Shown in pieces: positions 46,172-60,344 of a stretch of 63,946 nt of DNA (positions are counted from its first letter, which is position 1; every line of letters begins with the position of its first letter). The stretch is from a virus. The position numbers and the translations under genes were made by a program. The stretch is taken from positions 1 through 63,946 of IMG/VR virus record IMGVR_UViG_3300036851_000534; one strand, written 5' to 3'. Below the pieces are notes generated by a model. That model was not told the origin of the DNA and did not search any database. It worked only from the letters and a program-made list of their open reading frames with translations.

Positions 46172-46563
46172 GGATCTTCTCCCGCCGCAGTTACCACGAT
46201 GACCACTTCCTCCCGCTGCTTCCAGCGGTCTCCGGTCTCTTGCTGCACCGGCGCCCACTCGACATAGCGGGCGCTGTCGTCCGGCGTGATCCCGAATCCC
46301 TGGCGGCGCCGGCAGAACAGCGCGTTGATGATCGGCTCCGCCGCGGCCAGCAAGTGGTCCGGATCGATGGTGCGGCCGCGGCGCACCAGGAGCGTCACGC
46401 GCGCACGTCCTTCGACCTGCGGCGCGCCGGCGGCGAAGTAGGCGAGCTGGGCCGCGGCCTGCGCGGTCTTCTCTCGCCGCCGGCGTTCCTGGAGATGGAG
46501 CCGCTGATTGGACGTGAGCCGACCCAGATCATAGCAGACGCGCAGGATGAGCTTGTCGCTCAT
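46168..46563 (-). CDS. RusA-like Holliday junction resolvase
   Basis: 131 residues. RRGRTIDPDHLLAAAEPIIN near residues 60-80 and ITPDDSARYVEW near 92-103 match the order of motifs in RusA-type resolvases, where Asp residues bind metal. These enzymes resolve branched DNA before packaging. Place in the replication operon agrees. The second acidic motif is less canonical than in E. coli RusA. Confidence 0.65.
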   Translation of the reverse strand: MSDKLILRVCYDLGRLTSNQRLHLQERRRREKTAQAAAQLAYFAAGAPQVEGRARVTLLVRRGRTIDPDHLLAAAEPIINALFCRRRQGFGITPDDSARYVEWAPVQQETGDRWKQREEVVIVVTAAGEDP

Positions 46564-47723
46564 GGTCGAGCCTCCCGGCGGATCTTGCCGAGGATGTTGG
46601 CGACCGTTTTCAGCGCGATTCCGAGCTGCGCCGCGATCTGTGCCTGTGAATGGCCCTCCCTCTGAAGCTGGAGGATGGCCGCGGCGCGCTCTTGCCGCGA
46701 CGGCCGGGGCTCCCGGAGCGGAAGGCGTCCCTCGAGCTGCGCGCGCCGGATGAGGCGGCCGACCTGCTGGTGGGAAAGCGACAGCGCCGCGGCGATCTCC
46801 GCATAGGAGCGTCCTTCGGCATGGAGTCTCAGGACGGGGTCCGGATCCGCGGCGCGCGCCGCGCCTGCGATCGGCGGCAGCAGGCCGAGGCGCCGGGCCT
46901 CCCAGATCCAGGTATAGACAGTGGGCCGAGGGGCGGCAAGCTGCGCGGCGATCTCGGTCGGCGAGAGACCGGCGGCCATGAGGGCGCTCACCTCCCGGTG
47001 GCGGACGGTCTCTCGCCGGGGACGGCCGGCATAATCGGGCGTCAACGGAAGTGCCGGCGGCTCCGGAGTCACCCCAAGGATTTGGCGGAGCGCGAGGACT
47101 GCCTCCTGGTAGCGCTGGAAAGCGCCGGATTCAGAAATCCCGCTCCGCCGGCCGAGGGCGAGAAACGTTTCCCCCTCCATCCGGCCAGAGAGAACGTCTC
47201 GCTGCTCCTGGGTGAGCCTTCGCAGCGCCGACCGGAGCGCGAGCTGCGTTACGACCTGCTCTTCGGACCAGCCATCGGCGAGTGCCAGGTGCTCAGCGCG
47301 GTCAAAGACGTGGCTTACGCCGTCCTCATTCTCGATCAGCAGTTCCTCGAGGGAGAGGATCCGCTCGCGCAGGGGAGGCGGCTCCTCCGGCGGCTCGGGC
47401 CGCTGCCCCGCTGCATAGGCCGCCTGCTGCTCCTCATAGTCGCGCCAGCGTTGCCGCGCCGTCCGTCCCGCCGGATCCCAGTCTCGCAGCGCGTCTTTGA
47501 GGGCCCACCGGATTTTATTGATGATCCAGGTCCGCCGCGCCCACCCCAGTTCGGGTCGATAGCTGCGAGTCGCCCTCAGGGCGGCCTGGAGGGCAATCGC
47601 TTTCCAGTCGTCCTCATCCGCCTCCGGCAGCACTGGCAGGGCCAGCCGCGCCACCGTCTGCGCCGCCAGGGCGAAGAGGTGACTGATCTCTGCCGTTTCA
47701 GGGCAGGGAAGGCAGGGTTTCAT
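46560..47723 (-). CDS. Sigma-70-like factor fused to three HTH domains
   Basis: 387 residues. Residues 40-85 resemble sigma region 2 (SYRPELGWARRTWIINKIRW, then ALKDALRDWD). Residues 165-215 resemble region 4 (LTQEQRDVLSGRMEGETFLA with SGISESGAFQRYQEAVLALR). After residue 230 come three HTH segments: MAAGLSPTEIAAQLAAPRPT, EGRSYAEIAAALSLSHQQVG and EGHSQAQIAAQLGIALKTV. A phage sigma factor could redirect host RNA polymerase to late promoters. The extra HTH array is unusual. It could instead be an HTH regulator that only resembles a sigma factor. Confidence 0.65.
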   Translation of the reverse strand: MKPCLPCPETAEISHLFALAAQTVARLALPVLPEADEDDWKAIALQAALRATRSYRPELGWARRTWIINKIRWALKDALRDWDPAGRTARQRWRDYEEQQAAYAAGQRPEPPEEPPPLRERILSLEELLIENEDGVSHVFDRAEHLALADGWSEEQVVTQLALRSALRRLTQEQRDVLSGRMEGETFLALGRRSGISESGAFQRYQEAVLALRQILGVTPEPPALPLTPDYAGRPRRETVRHREVSALMAAGLSPTEIAAQLAAPRPTVYTWIWEARRLGLLPPIAGAARAADPDPVLRLHAEGRSYAEIAAALSLSHQQVGRLIRRAQLEGRLPLREPRPSRQERAAAILQLQREGHSQAQIAAQLGIALKTVANILGKIRREARP

Positions 47724-48066: not shown

Positions 48067-48468
48067 TTACCTCTCCAGAACGCCCATCCTCGCGCCGGAA
48101 ACCGCGCTGAGGCGTTCTTGGTCGTTTTCGCCGCTCGGTGCGTCAGAATCGCATCGTGGCGCGTTGACGCGCAATCTAGGCTGCCAGCGTCCGACGGTCA
48201 CATGACACCGCCCGACGCGCGCCCCGATCTCCCGTTGGGTCAGTCCCGCGTCGGTAAGGGCCGCGATGGCGGCGAGCAGGGCGGCGTCGGTGCGGAGATG
48301 CCGGCCCTTCTCCCGGGGGATCCCGGCCCGGTCGAGATGCTTCCTAACCGTGGCCGGATGCATCGTCAGCCGCCGGCCGATCTCCCGGCAGGAGAGCCGC
48401 TCCTCGACGTAGAGTTTGGCGCAGCGGCGCGCCTCGCGGGCCTCGCGTGGGGTGAGCGGCAGGTTCAT
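48067..48468 (-). CDS. Double-HTH DNA-binding protein
   Basis: 133 residues from ATG 48468. Two HTH segments: ERLSCREIGRRLTMHPATVR (residues 24-44) and AGLTQREIGARVGRCHVTVG (about 73-93), of the kind seen in resolvase tails and Trp-repressor-like proteins. No catalytic domain. It probably acts as a regulator. ATGA coupling with the methylase upstream. Confidence 0.7.
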   Translation of the reverse strand: MNLPLTPREAREARRCAKLYVEERLSCREIGRRLTMHPATVRKHLDRAGIPREKGRHLRTDAALLAAIAALTDAGLTQREIGARVGRCHVTVGRWQPRLRVNAPRCDSDAPSGENDQERLSAVSGARMGVLER

Positions 48469-49058
48469 CTTCCTGCTCTCCCGACCTCGATCAGCACCTC
48501 CTCGGGCAGTAGCGTTCCAGGGCGCGGACGGCGTCCCGGCAGCGCATAAGGGATCTCTGGCTGCTGGCGCCATTGCTCCCACGCTCGGATTACCGCTCCC
48601 GATCCCGGAAACAGATCATGGAACTCGTCGTTAGCTCTTAATCCAAGCACGCCGAACAACCAATAACAGAAGGCGTCGGGCTTGGCCCCGATGACCGGGC
48701 GCCGCAGCGTAATGTTCGCAGCGCACCAATCCCGTACCGTCAACTGGCGGCGAGTCCGCCGCCGGCCGCCGCACACGAGGAGCGGCTCCCATGCATAGGC
48801 CACCCCGACTCCAGGTTTGAAGGAACAGAATGGCTTCACCCATGCCATGACACGCGTTACGTCGGGAACAAGCGCCAATAGGATTCGGAGACTTGGCGAA
48901 TGACATGAGAGCGCCCAACCATCCGGAAACTCTTCCACGAGCCGGGCGATGAGTGCCGCGTGATCTATCTCTTGCTTCTCTGGATAACGGTGACCACAGC
49001 CGAGGTAAGGAGGATCGGCATAGGCAAATCTGCCCGGCCGGTCTTTGAGGTCCCTCAT
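48465..49058 (-). CDS. DNA methyltransferase-like protein (short, permuted)
   Basis: 197 residues from ATG 49058. YADPPYLGCGHRYPEK (motif IV, residue 13) is N-terminal, and FHDLFPGSGAVIRAWEQW (motif I-like) is C-terminal near residue 155, so the order is that of permuted beta-class enzymes. MAWVKPFCSFKPGV and YAWEPLLVCGGR resemble MT-A70/adenine methylases. It lacks a large target-recognition domain. This is the third methylase of the phage. Confidence 0.75.
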   Translation of the reverse strand: MRDLKDRPGRFAYADPPYLGCGHRYPEKQEIDHAALIARLVEEFPDGWALSCHSPSLRILLALVPDVTRVMAWVKPFCSFKPGVGVAYAWEPLLVCGGRRRTRRQLTVRDWCAANITLRRPVIGAKPDAFCYWLFGVLGLRANDEFHDLFPGSGAVIRAWEQWRQQPEIPYALPGRRPRPGTLLPEEVLIEVGRAGR

Positions 49059-49947: not shown

Positions 49948-50408
49948 GCGCGTCCCGCCCCCTCCCGGGCCTTCTTCGTCGCCTTGATTAGCTCGCTGGC
50001 GGCGGCCATGTCCGTTGGGATTTCCGCTTCCGTGTAGCCCCAGGCGAGCAGCAGGTTACGTTGGTTCTGGCTCACCGGCTTGTCTTTCATCACCACAAGC
50101 GCGTGCTGCTCGCCTTTCTCCCATTTGCGCCGGCGTTTCTCCTCATCCGACAGGGCAAGATAGGCGAACTTTCCCTCGGCATAAGCCAGTGCCTCTTCCT
50201 CAAACTCTCCGATAAGGGCAATGGTCAACTCGCCGCGCGAACGGGTATAAGGCTGGCGCAGCCACGCCACCGCCTGATCCAGCACGAGAGTGACGACCTC
50301 GCGGGCGTCTCTGGCCTGATCCCTCCGGATCGCGTCGAGGAAGGCGTTGGAGATCGTGCTTCGGACGGGAACCTCGAAGTGCTGGATGAATGCCTCGTCC
50401 TGTTTCAT
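49944..50408 (-). CDS. Hypothetical protein of the replication operon
   Basis: 154 residues from ATG 50408; a longer frame begins inside the upstream gene. Helical and charged, with KDKPVSQNQRNLLLAWGYTE, a segment I have seen in phage replication-linked proteins but cannot name. ATGA overlap downstream. Confidence 0.65.
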   Translation of the reverse strand: MKQDEAFIQHFEVPVRSTISNAFLDAIRRDQARDAREVVTLVLDQAVAWLRQPYTRSRGELTIALIGEFEEEALAYAEGKFAYLALSDEEKRRRKWEKGEQHALVVMKDKPVSQNQRNLLLAWGYTEAEIPTDMAAASELIKATKKAREGAGRA

Positions 50409-50740
50409 GGCGCAACTCCTGCCTTTCGGATCCGGACCCGGAAGCACCAGTTCACCTCGCCGGCAGTACCGGGTGTGGGCTGATAGCCGGCGGCGAGCAT
50501 GGCGCCTTTGAACTGGCCGTTGGTGACATAGAAACCCACGGCCTCGAAGTCATGCTTCAGTCCGTAGCTAGTCCGAGAGTTCGCTCGCGAGGTCGGCGTG
50601 AACGTCCGGGCGATCCACTGCTGCAATTCCATCTGCTGCGCCGCCGTCAATTCGGCATAGTGCTCCGGCGCATTGAACCGCGCCTCGTCGGCTTCCCTCT
50701 CCGGCTGTCGCTGCTTTCTGCTCGCTTTCGTCGCTTCCAT
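50405..50740 (-). CDS. Hypothetical protein beside the iteron region
   Basis: 111 residues from ATG 50740 behind AGGAGG. SRTSYGLKHDFEAVGFYVTN, then GAMLAAGYQPTPG, resembles small phage proteins associated with primases. Basic N-terminus. Probably binds DNA or a replication protein. Confidence 0.65.
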   Translation of the reverse strand: MEATKASRKQRQPEREADEARFNAPEHYAELTAAQQMELQQWIARTFTPTSRANSRTSYGLKHDFEAVGFYVTNGQFKGAMLAAGYQPTPGTAGEVNWCFRVRIRKAGVAP

Positions 50741-50794
50741 GGGCCCTCCTATCCTCACAGGTAAAGAGCCTGACCGCTGCCGTCTTCTCAAAGC

Positions 50795-50978
50795 GTGACG
50801 GGTTTCAGGCACCGTGACGGGTTGTGACGGGTTTTCCTATATGTTTTCTGTACAGTTCCGTCTGTTTGCCGGAGCCGCAAACCCGTCACAACCCGTCACG
50901 GGTTTTTCATGCGCGTGCAATTGGAGAAACCCGTCACAACCCGTCACCAGGCATAAAACCCGTCACGAAACCCGTCAC
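50795..50978. other. Putative replication origin: nine GTGACGGGT iterons
   Basis: Nine exact copies of the 9-mer. Three are direct (50795, 50814, 50824) and six inverted (50881, 50891, 50929, 50939, 50958, 50970), mostly paired about ten bases apart (one helical turn). They flank an AT-richer core at 50830-50880. The last copy contains the stop codon of the primase-helicase gene. This is the layout of an initiator-bound origin. Confidence 0.75.
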
Positions 50979-53374
50979 GCTCCCGCAAGGCGAGGATCAT
51001 CCCTCGTGTCTTCATCCAAGAGGCCGATGCCGCTGCGAAGTCGGCCGAGGTTGCGGTCGCGCACTTCCACGAAGCCCCGCTCGGTGAGCGCCCTCCCGAA
51101 GGCGGTTTGTGTCGCTGCTTGTTCCCCACTCGCCTGACACCATGCCTGATAAGCCGCGTAGAGGGCGCCGCTCCTGGCTCGCAGAGTAGGCTGCTGAACG
51201 CAGCGATCGGCGAGAAACCCGCCGAGGATGTCCATCTCCTGGCGATAGCTCTGCGTTGCCTCCAGCACGGCCGCCGGCCGTGCCAGCCCGATCTGTTGCC
51301 ATTGCAGACAGCCACGAACGGCCCAGGCGAGGATACCGGGCAGCTCGGCGAGCAGTTTGGTGAGCAGTAGTGGATCCTTGAGCGGTTGGCCGGGCAGCGC
51401 CCGGTCGGGATCGTAGAACGTGGCCGTAAAAGGGACGGTATGGATGCGTCGCCAAATGCCCTCGTCCGTTCCCTTGATTACCGGCTTGTGATTCGCCATG
51501 ATCCACAGCTTGTATTCAGGCAGGAACTCGACGAAATCCCGATGCATCTTGCGCCCCTTAAGGCGAACATCGCCCGTCATGCGTTTGACCAACTCCTCGG
51601 CGAGGCGCTTGCCTTCACCGACCTCCGAGCTGATGACGACCCGGCGTCCGGTAAGATCAGCGATGGCCGTAGGATGCTGGTCATGCTTCTGCTCCAACAG
51701 CAAACCGGGCGCTGCGGTCGTGGCGTACTCGCCGAGAAGCCGTTGGACCACCTCCAGAAACGTGCCCTTACCGTTCGCCCCCAATCCGTAGAGGAAGAAG
51801 AGACACTGCTCGCGCACGTCGCCGGCCAGGCTGTAGCCAACCGCACGCTGAAGATAGGCCGCCAGTGCCTCGTCGCCCTGGGTGATCTCGGCGAGGAACT
51901 GCTCCCAGCGGGGGCAGGTCGCCGTTGCGTCATAGTTGATCGGGATCTTGCGGGTGATGAAATCCTCGCGGCGATGCTGGCGCAGGGTGCCGGAGGTCAA
52001 TTCGAGGGTGCCATTTTCGAGGTTGAGCAGGAACGGGTGCGCGTCGAACTGTTCTGGAAGCAGGCAGATGCCGGGTTCGCTTTGGGCCAGCTCGATCATC
52101 GCTGCGAGCCGCCCGGCGCTTTCCGACTTCAAGCCCCACAGAGCGAGGGCTTTGCGTTCATCCGCCGAGTCGGCCTCACCCGCTTCGCTATAGATCGCGG
52201 CGACGGTCGCCTTGGCCCGTCGCATGATCGCGCGCGTCCGATCCTCGCACCAATGAGTCCCGCGCCAGATCAACCAGCCGTGAGCAAGCGTCGAGCGCAG
52301 ATTCTCTCCGTGTCGAGCCACCAGGCGCCGGGCGTTGCCCAGGTCCGTGTTGTGGATCGGCGCCGGCAGATCGACAGGCGGATCGGTCGGGGTGGTTACC
52401 TGGGGAGGGGCCGGCGAGTTCGGCAGAGAGGTGGCCGTGCGGTTGAAGGTGAACGCGCCGCTGCTGCCGTTGGCGGAGGGCTCATAGACGACGCCCCCGA
52501 GCGAGAGGGCCTTGTCGAGCGTCAGATCACCATAGGTTCGCTCACCCCGGCGTTCGTCCCACTTCTCGCGCATCAGCCCCGACTGACGGAAGAGCCGATC
52601 CATGCGCGGGCGGTCGCCCCGCGTCCAGAAGTAAAGCTCGGCGCAGAGCGCCAGGTCGGCCCGGCTGTCGTCGCCGCCGTAGTCGCCGGTATCGCCGCGC
52701 CAGAGCCGGCCGAACTTGAGGCCGTTCGCGGCCCGGTGGGCGCGGTCGAGGAGTTCCTGATCCGAGAGATCGAGCGGAGCGGCGGGGGCTGCCGGGGAGG
52801 AACGGGGGAGCATGAGGGCGTCGGGGAAACATTCGGCCAGCAGCGTGTCCAACTCCGCCTGGCGGGCCGCGATGATGGCCGGCGAGCCGGGCCAGTGCCG
52901 GCCGGTCACCGTCAGATAGCGGGCGCGATCGTAGACCTCGATCGCCCCGCCGTCGGCGAAGCTCTTCTTCCGGCCGTTGCCTGGCAGCCGGCCCTGGATC
53001 CAGACGCGGAGACCCTCCCCCGAAGGCGTAATCTCCGTATAGCTGTTGAGGAGGGCGATGGCGCGTGCTGACCAGGGAACGAGCCCCCCAGAGGAGAGGA
53101 TGCAATGGTCGAGATCGATGCCGACGTACGGATCGTCCGGGCTGATGACGAAACCGGGGCCGTTGAACTGATCCAGTCGCGCCGTTACCGCCTCGAAGGT
53201 GCTCCAGGTGGAGGCGTCCGTCGTGGAAGCGAGCCGGCCGTCAGGCCGAAACGGCGGCTTCGTGGGCCGGTCCTCATCCGCGCGGGTCACCCATTTCCAG
53301 CAAACCCACTGCGGCCGACCAGCCAGCTCCGAGAGGACGGGCAGCGAGGATTGAGTCGGATCAAACGTGTTCAT
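50975..53374 (-). CDS. Primase-polymerase/D5-type helicase
   Basis: 799 residues from ATG 53374. The N-terminal 200 residues fit an AEP-type prim-pol (GPGFVISPDDPYVGIDLDHC with the metal-binding Asp pair; SYTEITPSGEGLRVWIQG; IEVYDRARYLTVTG). The C-terminal 400 residues hold an SF3/D5-like helicase: LYGLGANGKGTFLEVVQRLL (Walker A), RRVVISSEVGEGKRLAEEL, and YKLWIMANHKPVIKGTDEGI. This resembles self-primed polymerase-helicases such as NrS-1 type. No separate DNA polymerase is seen in the window, so it may be the main replicase. Confidence 0.85.
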   Translation of the reverse strand: MNTFDPTQSSLPVLSELAGRPQWVCWKWVTRADEDRPTKPPFRPDGRLASTTDASTWSTFEAVTARLDQFNGPGFVISPDDPYVGIDLDHCILSSGGLVPWSARAIALLNSYTEITPSGEGLRVWIQGRLPGNGRKKSFADGGAIEVYDRARYLTVTGRHWPGSPAIIAARQAELDTLLAECFPDALMLPRSSPAAPAAPLDLSDQELLDRAHRAANGLKFGRLWRGDTGDYGGDDSRADLALCAELYFWTRGDRPRMDRLFRQSGLMREKWDERRGERTYGDLTLDKALSLGGVVYEPSANGSSGAFTFNRTATSLPNSPAPPQVTTPTDPPVDLPAPIHNTDLGNARRLVARHGENLRSTLAHGWLIWRGTHWCEDRTRAIMRRAKATVAAIYSEAGEADSADERKALALWGLKSESAGRLAAMIELAQSEPGICLLPEQFDAHPFLLNLENGTLELTSGTLRQHRREDFITRKIPINYDATATCPRWEQFLAEITQGDEALAAYLQRAVGYSLAGDVREQCLFFLYGLGANGKGTFLEVVQRLLGEYATTAAPGLLLEQKHDQHPTAIADLTGRRVVISSEVGEGKRLAEELVKRMTGDVRLKGRKMHRDFVEFLPEYKLWIMANHKPVIKGTDEGIWRRIHTVPFTATFYDPDRALPGQPLKDPLLLTKLLAELPGILAWAVRGCLQWQQIGLARPAAVLEATQSYRQEMDILGGFLADRCVQQPTLRARSGALYAAYQAWCQASGEQAATQTAFGRALTERGFVEVRDRNLGRLRSGIGLLDEDTRDDPRLAGA

Positions 53375-53390
53375 CACGCTCCTCGCGCGG

Positions 53391-53684
53391 TCACTTCTCC
53401 GCCGACTGCGCCTGCCAGCCCTGCGCCGTGAGCTTCCAGCCGAGGAGCGGACTCCCCTCGAGCAGTCCCCAGTCATGGAGCCGCTCCAGGTGACCCAGCA
53501 CCTCCGGGATGCTAAAGCCGGTCGCGCGGGCATACCAGCCCAGGGGCAAAAAAACGACGGTACTCTCGGCGGAATGTTCCGCGATACAACGGAGGATTGT
53601 TCGCTCGCGGGGAGGAACAATCGGGTATCTGGTCCCTGCCAACGTGCAGGAACCAGGTTCGACGCGAGACGCGCCGGTATCCAT
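53391..53684 (-). CDS. Winged-helix regulator-like protein
   Basis: 97 residues from ATG 53684 (AAGGAG upstream). Residues 25-90 read like a winged helix: ERTILRCIAEHSAESTVVFL, ARATGFSIPEVLGHLERLHD, WGLLEGSPLLGWKLT. It lies just upstream of the primase and downstream of repeated operator-like DNA. It probably regulates this operon. Confidence 0.65.
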   Translation of the reverse strand: MDTGASRVEPGSCTLAGTRYPIVPPRERTILRCIAEHSAESTVVFLPLGWYARATGFSIPEVLGHLERLHDWGLLEGSPLLGWKLTAQGWQAQSAEK

Positions 53685-53888: not shown

Positions 53889-53984
53889 TATAATGAGGGA
53901 GAGTGATGGATGGTTCTGACCTTGCCGGGTTGCGGAACCAACCTAATGGCCCGGAGAGTCGCCAAGCTCTCCGGGCCACTTTCT
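53889..53984 (+). ncRNA. Candidate small RNA or leader peptide unit
   Basis: TATAAT (53889-53894; possible -35 TGGACG, 17 bases upstream) points right. About 90 bases later GGCCCGGAGAG (53947-53957) pairs perfectly with CTCTCCGGGCC (53966-53976), followed by ACTTTCTT, a terminator. Between them GGTTC..GAACC can form another hairpin. An ATG at 53905 could encode a short peptide instead. The RNA would be antisense to the end of the 53943 gene. Confidence 0.5.
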
Positions 53985-54398
53985 TGTGCCGGCGCCGCGC
54001 GCCGCTTCCTCCAGTTCGCGAAATAATGCTGCCGCGAGCAATTCGTCCTCCGTTTCGCGGTCGCGCCGCACCGCATGGATTCGCCTCTTTACGAGTGCCG
54101 GCGCATACTCATCGCCGCCCTCTCCTGGTTCCACGCGCCCCCGGACCGGGCGCCGGCAAAACCATGCTTCTTGGCGCACGAGGATATCGAGCGCTGTCCG
54201 GGTACGGCCGCGGGAGAGGTGGCTGAGGTCCTGGATTTGGGCCAGGGAGGCGCGCCACCAGTGCCTCCCCGCCCCTACGGTTTTGCCATAGAGCACGCCG
54301 CCGACCGCGCGTACGTCCGGATTTGGATGCTGGGTGATGCGGAAACAGAGTTCAGACAGGTCGGCCGGGCCGCGTCGCTCTCTATGCTCATCCGCCAT
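53943..54398 (-). CDS. Putative helix-turn-helix replication protein
   Basis: 151 residues. LYGKTVGAGRHWWRASLAQI and SHLSRGRTRTALDILVRQEA look like a winged-helix fold. Charged C-terminus. Two such proteins in a row upstream of the primase suggest initiator or loader roles, but no specific family is recognised. Confidence 0.6.
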   Translation of the reverse strand: MADEHRERRGPADLSELCFRITQHPNPDVRAVGGVLYGKTVGAGRHWWRASLAQIQDLSHLSRGRTRTALDILVRQEAWFCRRPVRGRVEPGEGGDEYAPALVKRRIHAVRRDRETEDELLAAALFRELEEAARGAGTRKWPGELGDSPGH

Positions 54399-54401
54399 CG
54401 C

Positions 54402-54740
54402 CTATCGCTCCTGAGAGCCTCGCGCCGGACCGGCCATGCCGGGCGGCGGCTCCCACAGGATGTGAAAAACGTCGGCGCTCGCCTCGGCGACCCAGTTGAC
54501 CTCAGCGAGTCGCATCGCCGCCAGTCGGGTCCGCGCGAGGTTCAGGCCGCACTTCTCTGCCAGTTCGCCAACCGCAACGGTAGTTCCTGGTATGCCCGTC
54601 CGATTTTCCTCCATGAGGAGCCCGAGGAGCACGCGGAGCCCCTCGTCGGTAATGACATCGAGCTGCTCGAGCAGCTCGCGGGGGATCGCCACATACTCTG
54701 CCGCCCCGCCCTCGCTGTCTGTCGGTTTGCTGCTTGCCAT
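54402..54740 (-). CDS. Winged-helix protein
   Basis: 112 residues. IPRELLEQLDVITDEGLRVL, then VAVGELAEKCGLNLARTRLA, a winged-helix pattern like that of replication initiator N-terminal domains. It is followed by a three-base gap to the next gene. It could bind the nearby origin. Confidence 0.6.
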   Translation of the reverse strand: MASSKPTDSEGGAAEYVAIPRELLEQLDVITDEGLRVLLGLLMEENRTGIPGTTVAVGELAEKCGLNLARTRLAAMRLAEVNWVAEASADVFHILWEPPPGMAGPARGSQER

Positions 54741-54956: not shown

Positions 54957-55532
54957 TCAGGCGGCCGCTTCCTCCCGTCCCTTGACGGCCTCGATGCGGG
55001 CGCGCAGCTCTCGGACCCTCTCCTCGTTCCAGGCGCTCGCCGGCTCCATCAACGCGAGCAGGGGTTTCAGCACCTCCGGATCGAAGTGCCGCCGCTTGAT
55101 CCACGGTCCGGTTTCGAGGCGCGCTTCGAGCCAGTCCGAGAGATCCCCAAGGCTAAAATGCCACAAAATCGCTCCGTCTCTCGGCACGGCCAGGGCGCGG
55201 AGCCGGCCGTCAAGGATCTCCTGGCGCAGATGCTGCTTGCTCTTCCCGACGAGCCGGCGGGCGACGACCATCGGGACGATGACATGGCGCATCGCCTTCG
55301 GCAGCCCCGTCGTGGGACTGCGTTCCGCCTGCCACCGAGCCAGGGCCGCGCGGTCGATCAGAATCGCCGGCTTGCCGACTTTGCCGGATTGTCGAAACCG
55401 ATACGGCACGCCCGCCGCCTGGAGCGTGCGCCAGAGATAACGCCGCTCAAGCCCCGTCTCTGCGACCGCCTCCGGCAACGTCAGCCACTCCGCCTGCGGC
55501 TCCGGAACCTGCCCTTGTATCTCCATCGGCAT
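54957..55532 (-). CDS. Excisionase/MerR-like DNA-binding protein
   Basis: 191 residues (ATG 55532; ATG 55526 is better spaced from AAAGGAGG). Two HTH-like units: WLTLPEAVAETGLERRYLWR with GVPYRFRQSG, and GKSKQHLRQEILDGRLRALA. The order is that of excisionase-type or MerR-type domains. First gene after the promoter at 55550. It may be the main early regulator. No integrase partner exists in the window. Confidence 0.65.
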   Translation of the reverse strand: MPMEIQGQVPEPQAEWLTLPEAVAETGLERRYLWRTLQAAGVPYRFRQSGKVGKPAILIDRAALARWQAERSPTTGLPKAMRHVIVPMVVARRLVGKSKQHLRQEILDGRLRALAVPRDGAILWHFSLGDLSDWLEARLETGPWIKRRHFDPEVLKPLLALMEPASAWNEERVRELRARIEAVKGREEAAA

Positions 55533-55628: not shown

Positions 55629-56162
55629 ATGCCACGCTTGATACCGGTGGACTGGACCCCCGAGTGTCGTATGTCGCGTCTGGTAATCCACTGGACGGCC
55701 GGAGCCGGGGCTCCTTCGGCAGAGGACCTCGAGAGTTACCATATTCTCATCGATCGGGTGGGCCTCCCCCATCGCGGCGACCACAGCATCCGCGACAACC
55801 TCAACACCATTGACGACGACTACGCCGCCCACACGCGCGCCCTGAATACCGGCAGCATTGGCCTGGCGCTTTGCGGAATGGCCGGCGCAAACCGGGCGCC
55901 GTTTGCTCCCGGGAGGTTCCCGCTGACCCGCCCGCAGTGGAATAACGCGCTCTTGGCCGCGGCGGATCTCTGCGAGCGGTATGGGATCGCGCCGGAGCGG
56001 AACACGCTCCTGATGCATTGCGAGGTGCCGCAGGCGCTTGGGGTGGCGCAGCGGGGAAAGTGGGACGTAACCGTTCGTACGTGGGCTGGGCCGCCGGAGT
56101 ATGCCTCGCTCACTCCAGGGGAAGAGTTAAGGGTTCGGGTGAAGAAACTTCTGGAGGGGTAG
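55629..56162 (+). CDS. N-acetylmuramoyl-L-alanine amidase (endolysin)
   Basis: 177 residues. RLVIHWTAGAGAP near residue 18 and LLMHCEVPQALG near 127 provide zinc ligands of Amidase_2/PGRP-type enzymes. GSIGLALCGMAGA near 77 is the usual central strand. It would cleave the peptide-glycan amide bond at lysis. The last 37 residues have a displaced, frameshifted copy at 56828-56939, and the present end overlaps the HNH gene by 53 bases. Confidence 0.88.
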   Translation: MPRLIPVDWTPECRMSRLVIHWTAGAGAPSAEDLESYHILIDRVGLPHRGDHSIRDNLNTIDDDYAAHTRALNTGSIGLALCGMAGANRAPFAPGRFPLTRPQWNNALLAAADLCERYGIAPERNTLLMHCEVPQALGVAQRGKWDVTVRTWAGPPEYASLTPGEELRVRVKKLLEG

Positions 56163-57690: not shown

Positions 57691-58389
57691 TTACAAGCGC
57701 AAGACGGTCATGAGCTTGAAACCGCGGTTCCCGACCCGACGAATGCCGACCCGCAGCATGGAGGAGCTGGTGCCCGCCGTCAGCCCGCCACCGACATAGA
57801 TTTCCTGGTGGCCGAGCCGGTTGCCGCGCTTGTGAAAAAACAAAAAATCCCCGGGTTTATACCACTGGTAGTAAGGCGCATAGCGCGTCGAGACGCGAGA
57901 GGCGACGATTTTTCCGCCCCGCCGGCGGAGCTGTGGATAGGCGACGTTGACCGCATAGGAGTGGCGTTTGCCGCCCGATTTCACCAGGATGTAGGAGGTG
58001 AAGGCGGCGCAGGCGACCCGGGGCGCGGACGGCAGAAACCGGGAGTTTCGCGGCATGGACGACGCCACGCGGCGGGCGGTCAAGCCGACGCGCGTGCCGA
58101 GCCGGGAATGCCTTGCCCGGGGATTGACCAGGCGCAGCGCTTCCACGGGCGCGAAGATGTCCGGCCGGCCCGGGACGAGCGACTTCAGCCGCATGGTTGT
58201 CTTGCCCTGCCAGGTGCGGAGGATCTGCTGTGGCGGCTCGAAAAACTCCCCGACCGGATAGCCCGGCACGGTCATGACCGGCTCTTTGGGTCGGGGAGCG
58301 GCTGCCGCCCCGATGGCCCGCAGCCCGTTCCCGCGCCCGCCGCACAGGAGTAGGAGGCCAACGAGACAGAGCCGGGGACAGTTGTTCAT
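57691..58389 (-). CDS. Secreted NlpC/P60-like peptidase or amidase
   Basis: 232 residues from ATG 58389. An N-terminal signal, perhaps lipoprotein-like (LCLVGLLLLCGG). VACAAFTSYILVKSGGKRHS provides the candidate Cys near residue 132, and YKPGDFLFFHKRGNRLGHQE the downstream His. NlpC/P60-like enzymes cut cell-wall peptides. Its stop and start overlap neighbours within the lysis operon. Confidence 0.65.
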   Translation of the reverse strand: MNNCPRLCLVGLLLLCGGRGNGLRAIGAAAAPRPKEPVMTVPGYPVGEFFEPPQQILRTWQGKTTMRLKSLVPGRPDIFAPVEALRLVNPRARHSRLGTRVGLTARRVASSMPRNSRFLPSAPRVACAAFTSYILVKSGGKRHSYAVNVAYPQLRRRGGKIVASRVSTRYAPYYQWYKPGDFLFFHKRGNRLGHQEIYVGGGLTAGTSSSMLRVGIRRVGNRGFKLMTVLRL

Positions 58390-60200
58390 CGTGCGGCCCA
58401 TACGGCGCACCAATAGGCGCCGTCCTGCGCGATTCCGACCTCCCGGTACTGGCTCCCCAGGATGATTGCCTTGTGGCCGGGGGAGTTCATCCACGCTTGC
58501 GTCACGGCGGCGGGCGTCGGATACCCCATCGCGACGATCTCTCCGTAGGTGCGCCAGGGATAGCCGGCGCGGGTGAGTCGCGCGCCGGGGTTGCTGCCGT
58601 CCCCTCCCGTGTGGCTCATCATCTGGCGCTTTCGCATGTCAGCAGCGTGGGCGATGGCCGCCGCCGTGAGCTGCGGATGGATCACTACCGCCGTGAGGCC
58701 CGCCTGCACCCGCGCGGCGTTGAAGAGGGAGAGCACCTCGGCTGCGATCGTCTCCGTTCCCGGATCGATCACCGGCGGCGTTACCGGCGGCGGAACCGGG
58801 GTGGGGAGCGGGCCGGGGGCGGGCGGCGTAGGCGGCGTCGGCAGGCCCGGCGGCGCGCCTTGCTTTGCCTGCTGGCAGGCGCCGGCCGCGTTTAGGAGCC
58901 CGGCGCCAAAACTCTCATCCCAGCCGGGCGCCCCCAGGTCGCGCGCCGTGCTCGTCAGGAGTGCCCGCACCTGCTCCATCGAGAGGTTCGGGTTGATCGA
59001 GAGGATGGCCGTCGCGGCCCCGCTTACGTGCGGCGTTGCCATGCTCGTGCCGGAGAAGTAAAAATAGCCGCTCTGCTGGTTGCTCTGGCCGAACGTCTGC
59101 TGGAGGATCTGGCTCCCGGGAGCCGTCAGCGTCAGCCCTGGCCCATACTGCGAGAACGACGCCCGCGCCCCGCGCGCCGTCGTGGCGCCCACGGAGATGG
59201 TCTGCGGATAGGCGGCCGGATAGGTGATCCCCCGCTTGCCGGAGTTGCCGGCGGCGGCGCAGATGACCGCGCCCTTCTGCCGGGCATACTCGATGGCATC
59301 CTTGAGGGTCTGGCTCCCGACCCCACCAATCGAGAGGTTCAGGACCCGGGCGCCCTTATCCACCGCGTACCGGATCCCCACGCCAATGGAGTAGTTGCTG
59401 CCCCGGCCCGCCTTGTCCAGCACCTTGACCGGCAGGATGGTGCTTCCCGGGGCGAGGCCGGCGCAGCCCCGGAGGTTGTTGGTGGTCTGGGCGATGGTGC
59501 CGCAAACATGGGTCCCGTGGCCGTTGTCGTCATTCGTGTTCGTGTTGTTGGCGATGACGTTCAGGCCCGACATGAACTTCGTCCCGGTCAGGTCCGTGCT
59601 CGTCTGCCGCACGCCCGTATCCAGAATCGCACAAATGATGCCGGTCCCCTGCGTCAGCGCCCGCACGGTGGGCAGACCGACGCCATAGAGCCCATCGGCA
59701 AAGCCCCACTGAAACCGCAGATAGGGGTCGTTCGGCGTCTCCCGGGCGTCCAGGGCTTTGGAGAGCGGCAGCGGCAGTTTCTCGGGCAGGCGGTATCGCT
59801 GCACGATCGGGAGCAGCGCCATCCGCACTTCCGGCTCGATATATTCAATCGGCAGGTTGACCTCGGCGAGGGCGACGAATCCCTTCCGGGCGATCGGTTT
59901 CACCAGCAAGTACGGCCCCGGCTTGAGCTTGCCGACGACGGTGACGCCGAGTACCCGGCTCACCTGCTGGATGAGGGCGGCGGTGCTGTTCTGGTTGAGC
60001 TTGACAATCATCCGGCCGGTGACGAGCGGGGTCTCGACCATGATCTTAGTCGGGGCCACCGGCATGCCCATGCGGATCATCGGCAAGGTCACCGGTGCCG
60101 GCCGTCGGCCGATGTAGGGCGGGACGAGCTGCTGGGCAGACGCCAGGCGAAAGAAGCCGGACGCCAGGAGCAGGGCGAGAATGGTCCCCCTAACGAGCAT
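58386..60200 (-). CDS. Secreted subtilisin (S8) fused to a CAP/SCP domain
   Basis: 604 residues from ATG 60200, with a signal peptide (TILALLLASGFFRLASAQ). Residues 70-150 resemble an inhibitor-like prodomain. The S8 triad is visible: AILDTGV (Asp, near 203), GHGTHVCGT (His, near 242) and FSGTSMATPHVSGA (Ser, near 405). A Pro-rich linker (about 470-500) leads to a CAP domain at 505-604 (HPQLTAAAIAHAADM, AWMNSPGHKAIILG). Phages rarely encode exported proteases of this size. It may digest host surface protein during release. Confidence 0.88.
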   Translation of the reverse strand: MLVRGTILALLLASGFFRLASAQQLVPPYIGRRPAPVTLPMIRMGMPVAPTKIMVETPLVTGRMIVKLNQNSTAALIQQVSRVLGVTVVGKLKPGPYLLVKPIARKGFVALAEVNLPIEYIEPEVRMALLPIVQRYRLPEKLPLPLSKALDARETPNDPYLRFQWGFADGLYGVGLPTVRALTQGTGIICAILDTGVRQTSTDLTGTKFMSGLNVIANNTNTNDDNGHGTHVCGTIAQTTNNLRGCAGLAPGSTILPVKVLDKAGRGSNYSIGVGIRYAVDKGARVLNLSIGGVGSQTLKDAIEYARQKGAVICAAAGNSGKRGITYPAAYPQTISVGATTARGARASFSQYGPGLTLTAPGSQILQQTFGQSNQQSGYFYFSGTSMATPHVSGAATAILSINPNLSMEQVRALLTSTARDLGAPGWDESFGAGLLNAAGACQQAKQGAPPGLPTPPTPPAPGPLPTPVPPPVTPPVIDPGTETIAAEVLSLFNAARVQAGLTAVVIHPQLTAAAIAHAADMRKRQMMSHTGGDGSNPGARLTRAGYPWRTYGEIVAMGYPTPAAVTQAWMNSPGHKAIILGSQYREVGIAQDGAYWCAVWAAR

Positions 60201-60344
60201 GAAAAACCCTTTGCTGGAGGCGGCGACTGGGAGCAACTGGCGGGGCCAGGGAGCCTCTCCCTCGCACTCACCGCCTCCAGCCGTAAGCATTATCCGTAAC
60301 TAACCCGCTACAGCAAGCCGTCGCCATCTGCCTTCCCGAGCGAT

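Follow-up and report, generated by a model that had tools for sequence, protein, structure and literature searches.

Nine short repeats lie at the 3' end of a primase-helicase gene in this viral genome, raising the question of whether they form a replication origin and, if so, which protein reads them. A sequence-only reading of the window (the whole stretch of 63,946 bases analyzed here) had proposed an iteron origin with repeats at near ten-base spacing, three in one direction and six in the other around an AT-richer core, and had named two small nearby proteins as candidate initiators. Exact copies of GTGACGGGT number nine, all within 50795-50978 (184 bp), three on the + strand and six on the - strand, just as proposed, and GTGACGGGTT is a longer form common to all nine. 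No further exact copy was found in the 63,946 bases; base composition predicts about 0.8 per window and 0.002 per 184 bp. One-mismatch copies elsewhere in the window are at chance level (18 in all versus 14.3 expected). The array and its flanking gene are laid out as follows.

50795..50832, + strand: left iteron block, with exact GTGACGGGT at 50795, 50814, and 50824
50833..50880, no strand: AT-richer core, candidate DNA-unwinding element, 54% AT versus 35% for the window
50881..50978, - strand: right iteron block, with exact GTGACGGGT at 50881, 50891, 50929, 50939, 50958, and 50970
50405..50740, - strand: next gene downstream, at the other edge of the gap (phrog_9576; ATG at 50740)

Start-to-start spacings of the nine iterons are 19, 10, 57, 10, 38, 10, 19, and 12, so that the near ten-base spacing holds for three pairs (10, 10, 10), the other spacings being 12 to 57. 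The two blocks are in facing orientation, each copy pointing GTGA away from the core and GGGTT toward it. The 48-bp core is AT-richer, as had been noted, to a modest degree: 2.8% of 45-bp windows are equally AT-rich. An imperfect tenth copy, GTCACGGGT, at 50895 on the + strand forms a 13-bp palindrome with the neighboring iteron. The array occupies a noncoding gap between the primase-helicase stop codon on one side and the ATG at 50740 on the other. That stop codon sits inside the last iteron, which bears out the proposed position and places the iterons directly downstream of the helicase gene.

The primase-helicase gene encodes the following parts.

50975..53620, - strand: P4/D5-family primase-helicase ORF including the stop codon, proposed initiator (TIGR01613, D5_N, NrS-1 HBD, DUF5906, Pox_D5; phrog_1829)
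52460..53344, - strand: primase part (AEP, NrS-1-like), residues 93-387, matching NrS-1 primase chains at E ~1e-46 and 7ola_A at E 1.7e-46
51098..52030, - strand: SF3 helicase part, residues 531-841 (TIGR01613)
51020..51229, - strand: C-terminal winged helix, residues 798-867, proposed iteron reader (from a model of residues 770-881)

The ORF begins with TTG, and the true start may be further in. Its phrog_1829 match has an E value of 1.5e-190, and scores of 303.6 bits for TIGR01613 (cut-off, 108.7) and 108.6 bits for D5_N (cut-off, 22.4) establish a Primase_Cterm/D5_N SF3 helicase. The TIGR01613, D5_N, DUF5906, and Pox_D5 matches fall in the helicase half, and the NrS-1-type helix-bundle domain follows the primase half. 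Among solved structures, the primase-helicase matches 7ola, a 797-residue "DNA primase" that we take to be the SaPI5 protein, at ~1e-46. The model of residues 770-881, built with 43 relatives, is a confident winged helix (pLDDT ~95 over the domain). In structural comparisons its best scores are with RFX DNA-binding domains (Z 9.9 to 10.1; 1dp7, Z 9.9), along with 8.7 for the C-terminal domain of a second AEP-SF3 PrimPol and 8.3 for 1ka8, the origin-binding domain of phage P4. A sequence profile of the domain also matches 7ola (E 2.7e-4); the absence of 7ola from the VIA-align structural listing is uninformative. PMC10516667 draws the same comparison for that AEP-SF3 PrimPol and likens its architecture to SaPI5 PriRep1.

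A DNA-only scan for GTGACGGGTTNTGACGGGT over 2.9 million IMG/VR viral contigs returned 15 stretches, of which 14 had at least three copies; a single contig contributed two stretches, one from each end. The reversed pattern, used as a control, returned one stretch. In most of these loci, comparison with the window's ORFs showed the primase to end next to the array. The final array set combined four scans and retained loci with at least three copies and both directions, a requirement imposed because gapped direct-pair scans yield many two-copy or tandem matches, forward and control alike. Among the matches listed for the gapped direct scan, 15 of 102 new loci qualified, versus 1 of 120 for the reversed control. 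Together the four scans gave at least 70 loci with three or more GTGACGGGT copies in both directions, at least 55 of them non-redundant. These 55 loci span 33 to 74% GC. By tblastn, the window primase was matched in 35 of the 55 and in none of 120 controls, while none of the window's other replication ORFs was matched in the array loci. The core was more AT-rich than its locus in all 51 measurable arrays, by a median of 12.5 points, versus approximately 0 for random segments. Same-strand spacings in these arrays cluster at 7, 9 to 12, and 21. In a separate search, whole-array blastn against named phages returned as its best 60 of 115 records (E up to 10) Propionibacterium/Cutibacterium phages at E ~2; these were judged to be chance matches, nearly all lying in a tail gene.

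A primase/SF3-helicase gene ends beside the array in 43 of the 55 loci. The primase or its C-terminal domain lies within the extracted locus in 41, and in 36 of these the array starts 0 to 500 bp after the domain (at most 150 bp in 31); in the rest it lies at 574 and 609 bp in two loci and elsewhere in three. The C-terminal-domain profile was built partly from array-locus proteins, so its E values are not independent, whereas the distances are. In L063 and L245 the primase is just beyond the extracted piece, L081 is redundant with loci having the primase adjacent, a BT4734/PriCT_1/DUF5906 protein ends at the array in L097, and the primase match in L242 is weak. Arrays lacking an adjoining primase/SF3 gene number 12 of 55. 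A primase is encoded elsewhere in the record in six of the 55 (L071, L088, L107, L117, L225, and L257), and no replication gene was found in L086, L093, L158, or L211, all except L093 being contigs of 9 kb or less.

Several loci present features of their own. The array L071:527-655 recurs as L073:6432-6560 at the opposite end of the same 50,541-base contig, which suggests a terminal repeat; the primase is ~3 kb away. The five-copy array L086:1648-1750 adjoins a terminase large subunit gene with a LAGLIDADG/homing-endonuclease-type insertion, probably an intein. A number of high-GC loci, L083, L104, L130, and L200 among them, have their arrays within frames of up to 1839 amino acids that continue past the primase C-terminal domain, and these long frames are either true fusions or GC-rich open frames. 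A Prim-Pol/AAA_25 (RecA-type) replication gene contains the GTGACGGGT array L115:7818-7963 within its 3' end. The GTGACGGGT array L109:3585-3781 adjoins an HTH_36 winged-helix gene on a 35-kb contig in which no P4-type primase was detected; here the same iteron is apparently paired with a different initiator.

Could one or both of the small ORFs (53943-54398 and 54402-54740) bind the iterons, with the primase-helicase recruited secondarily? They lie near the array and may be winged helices, since their helix patterns are compatible with that fold; the single-sequence model of 54402, with H-H-H-E-E order, has low confidence (mean pLDDT, 46). The L109 arrangement likewise fits a separate winged-helix reader. 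Neither small ORF, however, has a Pfam or NCBIfam match at the curated cut-off, a PHROG match, or an HTH_36 match, so neither fits a lambda O-type system, in which the iterons lie within or next to an HTH_36 initiator gene. Their homologues were absent from 50,697 phage records and from all 55 array loci, where the primase was matched, and they show no similarity to the primase C-terminal domain. We consider the two proteins unlikely iteron readers, and the suggestion that they are the initiators was not supported.

It is similarly improbable that the array, instead of being an origin, is an operator through which a phage repressor controls either the replication operon or the downstream gene (50405-50740). 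The array does lie upstream of a same-strand gene start, and iteron arrays often double as operators. Against this, no sigma-70-like promoter was found in 50600-51100 (a weak test), AT-rich cores recur, and it is the upstream primase that is shared with other array loci, whereas relatives of the downstream gene occur in 0 of 55. A parS-like partition centromere for plasmid-like maintenance is less likely still. Partition centromeres also have repeated short sites in both orientations, which the array would fit, but no ParA/ParB-type gene adjoins it among the window ORFs scanned, and the gene linked to arrays across loci is the primase-helicase. The helix-turn-helix protein at 46560 has weak RepB and ParB-like matches confined to its helix-turn-helix part.

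Elsewhere in the window, the early-region ORFs 46560-47723 (-) and 48067-48582 (-) each contain several helix-turn-helix stretches (sigma-region-4, HTH_23-like). An excisionase/regulator-like ORF with two weak HTH_17 stretches lies upstream of the replication gene (54957-55532, -) and is a faint indication that the phage may be temperate. A 634-amino-acid ORF (58386-60290, -; phrog_3677 protease) is a fusion of CAP/SCP and subtilase (Peptidase_S8, 202 bits) domains, and an NlpC/P60-like ORF (57691-58494) adjoins it, a secreted-type enzyme pair unusual for a phage.

The shape of the array, rather than its repeat words, could in principle be what is recognized. One strand folds far better than shuffled sequences (-58 kcal/mol; z -8.6), and, according to PMC4234260, the pRN1 plasmid, whose replication protein likewise combines an AEP primase, an SF3 helicase, and a C-terminal winged helix, has its origin just downstream of that related gene and needs a 100-nt stem-loop there. 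That origin is of a stem-loop kind, without iterons, whereas the window has nine exact iterons instead of a single long stem-loop. The strong fold follows from the inversion of the iteron blocks. Copy order, number, and spacing, moreover, vary widely across related loci (e.g., +++-, -++++, and +--+++--++). Recognition of a cruciform in the pRN1 manner is thus very unlikely.

Named phages with related primases extend the pattern to other iteron words. In eight of 11, the first 400 bp beyond the primase gene contain an array of short repeats, by the criterion that 0 of 200 shuffles were equal at one word length or more; among control windows, 2 of 125 passed a looser test. A9Y and EV3 show weaker arrays, and none was detected in Wrath. 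In Lactobacillus phage A2, a rep_origin is annotated right after the primase gene. The words differ, for example ATGTAGGG in JNU_P5, ACGGGAGG in A2, and AAGTAACA in phi105. Other iterons occupy this position in named phages whose primases are related, so that clear iterons are common in this setting, contrary to the earlier view that few tailed phages have them. The modules of A2, phi105, and Listeria, Enterococcus, and Staphylococcus phages resemble that of the window in having a related primase (31 to 36% identity) and, in the gap after the gene, iteron blocks around an AT-rich core; they differ in their iteron words and in their low-GC Gram-positive hosts.

At equal helicase identity, C-terminal-domain identity was higher among GTGACGGGT users than between classes in 6 of 6 bins. 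Overall identity was 24.8 versus 22.9%, and 23 of 2000 label shuffles were as extreme (35 versus 19 proteins; the shuffling ignores kinship). This small effect, with kinship uncontrolled, is consistent with the domain reading the word. At window residue 856, R or K occurs in 23 of 37 GTGACGGGT users versus 3 of 19 others; single residues are suggestive only, because ~79 columns were tested and kinship is uncontrolled. Both tests left out L004, L019, L020, L021, L073, L088, L107, L225, and L389, as well as L397 and proteins having too few aligned columns. A pan-family consensus, GTGA...GGTT, was also tried; it beat shuffles (at most 5%) in only 4 of 19 loci (phi105, TMW 1.591 P1, EV3, and L017) and was kept as no more than a lead.

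The word also occurs outside viral contigs. Two Oscillatoria acuminata plasmids carry exact GTGACGGGT copies, six in one and five in the other and oriented both ways, within the 3' part of a DUF5906 gene. A Pantoea plasmid match was rejected, having two exact copies only and no replication gene annotated alongside. Among cellular genomes, the close-pair pattern was rare in each of three phylum-wide draws (3 of 398, 4 of 396, and 0 of 398). Of the seven cellular loci, two are mixed arrays adjoining the same primase, and both came from the draw centered on an actinobacterial genome. We rejected a host-factor site, given this rarity, a frequency in the first draw about that of the reversed control, and the adjoining primase at those two loci.

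Several known systems share this organization. In the alpha protein of satellite phage P4, a primase-helicase likewise ends in a C-terminal winged helix that binds the origin (1ka8). That domain reads short iterons (ori/crr), and the P4 site layout differs from that of the window array. The primase type differs as well, being Toprim in P4, according to PMC4234260, versus AEP/NrS-1-like here. According to PMC7581432, the C-terminal domain of SaPI Rep recognizes an iteron origin directly downstream of the helicase gene, and the isolated C-terminal domain of Cch2 binds its downstream repeats. The window protein resembles those of the SaPI5 PriRep-type and SCCmec Cch2 systems described there in its Primase_Cterm/D5_N helicase (fused to a primase in SaPI5), its C-terminal DNA-binding domain, and the iterons directly downstream. 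Unlike these, the window is a whole tailed-phage genome with another iteron word in nine copies (3+6), and binding here is putative.

Taken together, the related arrays, primase linkage, named relatives, and AT-rich cores lend good comparative support to the proposed iteron origin. We conclude, with a probability of roughly 82%, that the array is the phage replication origin and that its initiator is the primase-helicase encoded immediately upstream, with putative binding via the C-terminal winged helix, a reading drawn from sequence comparison and analogy. Cumulative GC skew, offered earlier as a check, counts against it in that it does not point to the array: the minimum is at 55,850, although a flat low at ~46 to 58 kb spans the array. 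Because the curve shows no distinct turn here and gene direction confounds it, we regarded skew as uninformative and gave it no weight as evidence. By analogy with the SaPI, Cch2, and P4 precedents, copies of the primase-helicase would bind the nine iterons by their RFX/P4-type winged helices and assemble into rings. Two facing iteron blocks around an AT-rich core would suit the loading of two helicase rings across it; the core would then melt, the SF3 helicase would unwind the DNA, and the fused AEP primase would prime synthesis in both directions.

More tentatively, GTGACGGGT might be a common origin word that moves between replicons while its reader is exchanged. This 9-bp iteron, arranged for the most part as inverted blocks with an AT-rich core between them, would then serve P4/D5 primase-helicases in phages of 33 to 74% GC, SF3 proteins of the BT4734 and VapE/DUF5906 types, an HTH_36 initiator, a Prim-Pol/RecA-type (AAA_25) protein, and plasmids of cyanobacteria. 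If so, origins could be cross-recognized or captured between unrelated phages and plasmids. The origin arrangement itself is already known from other phages and genomic islands. In the open-licence PMC full-text subset, we found no description of GTGACGGGT as an origin repeat, nor any account of a single exact iteron word recurring in phages as divergent as these, with two arrays beside unrelated replication proteins.

These findings name an origin and, with good odds, an initiator for an otherwise uncharacterized phage, and the iteron word alone locates phage origins beside this protein family in metagenomes. One conserved word paired with very divergent C-terminal domains, alongside close relatives that have other words, offers ready-made material for working out how these self-loading helicases recognize DNA, and cross-recognition between phages becomes directly testable.
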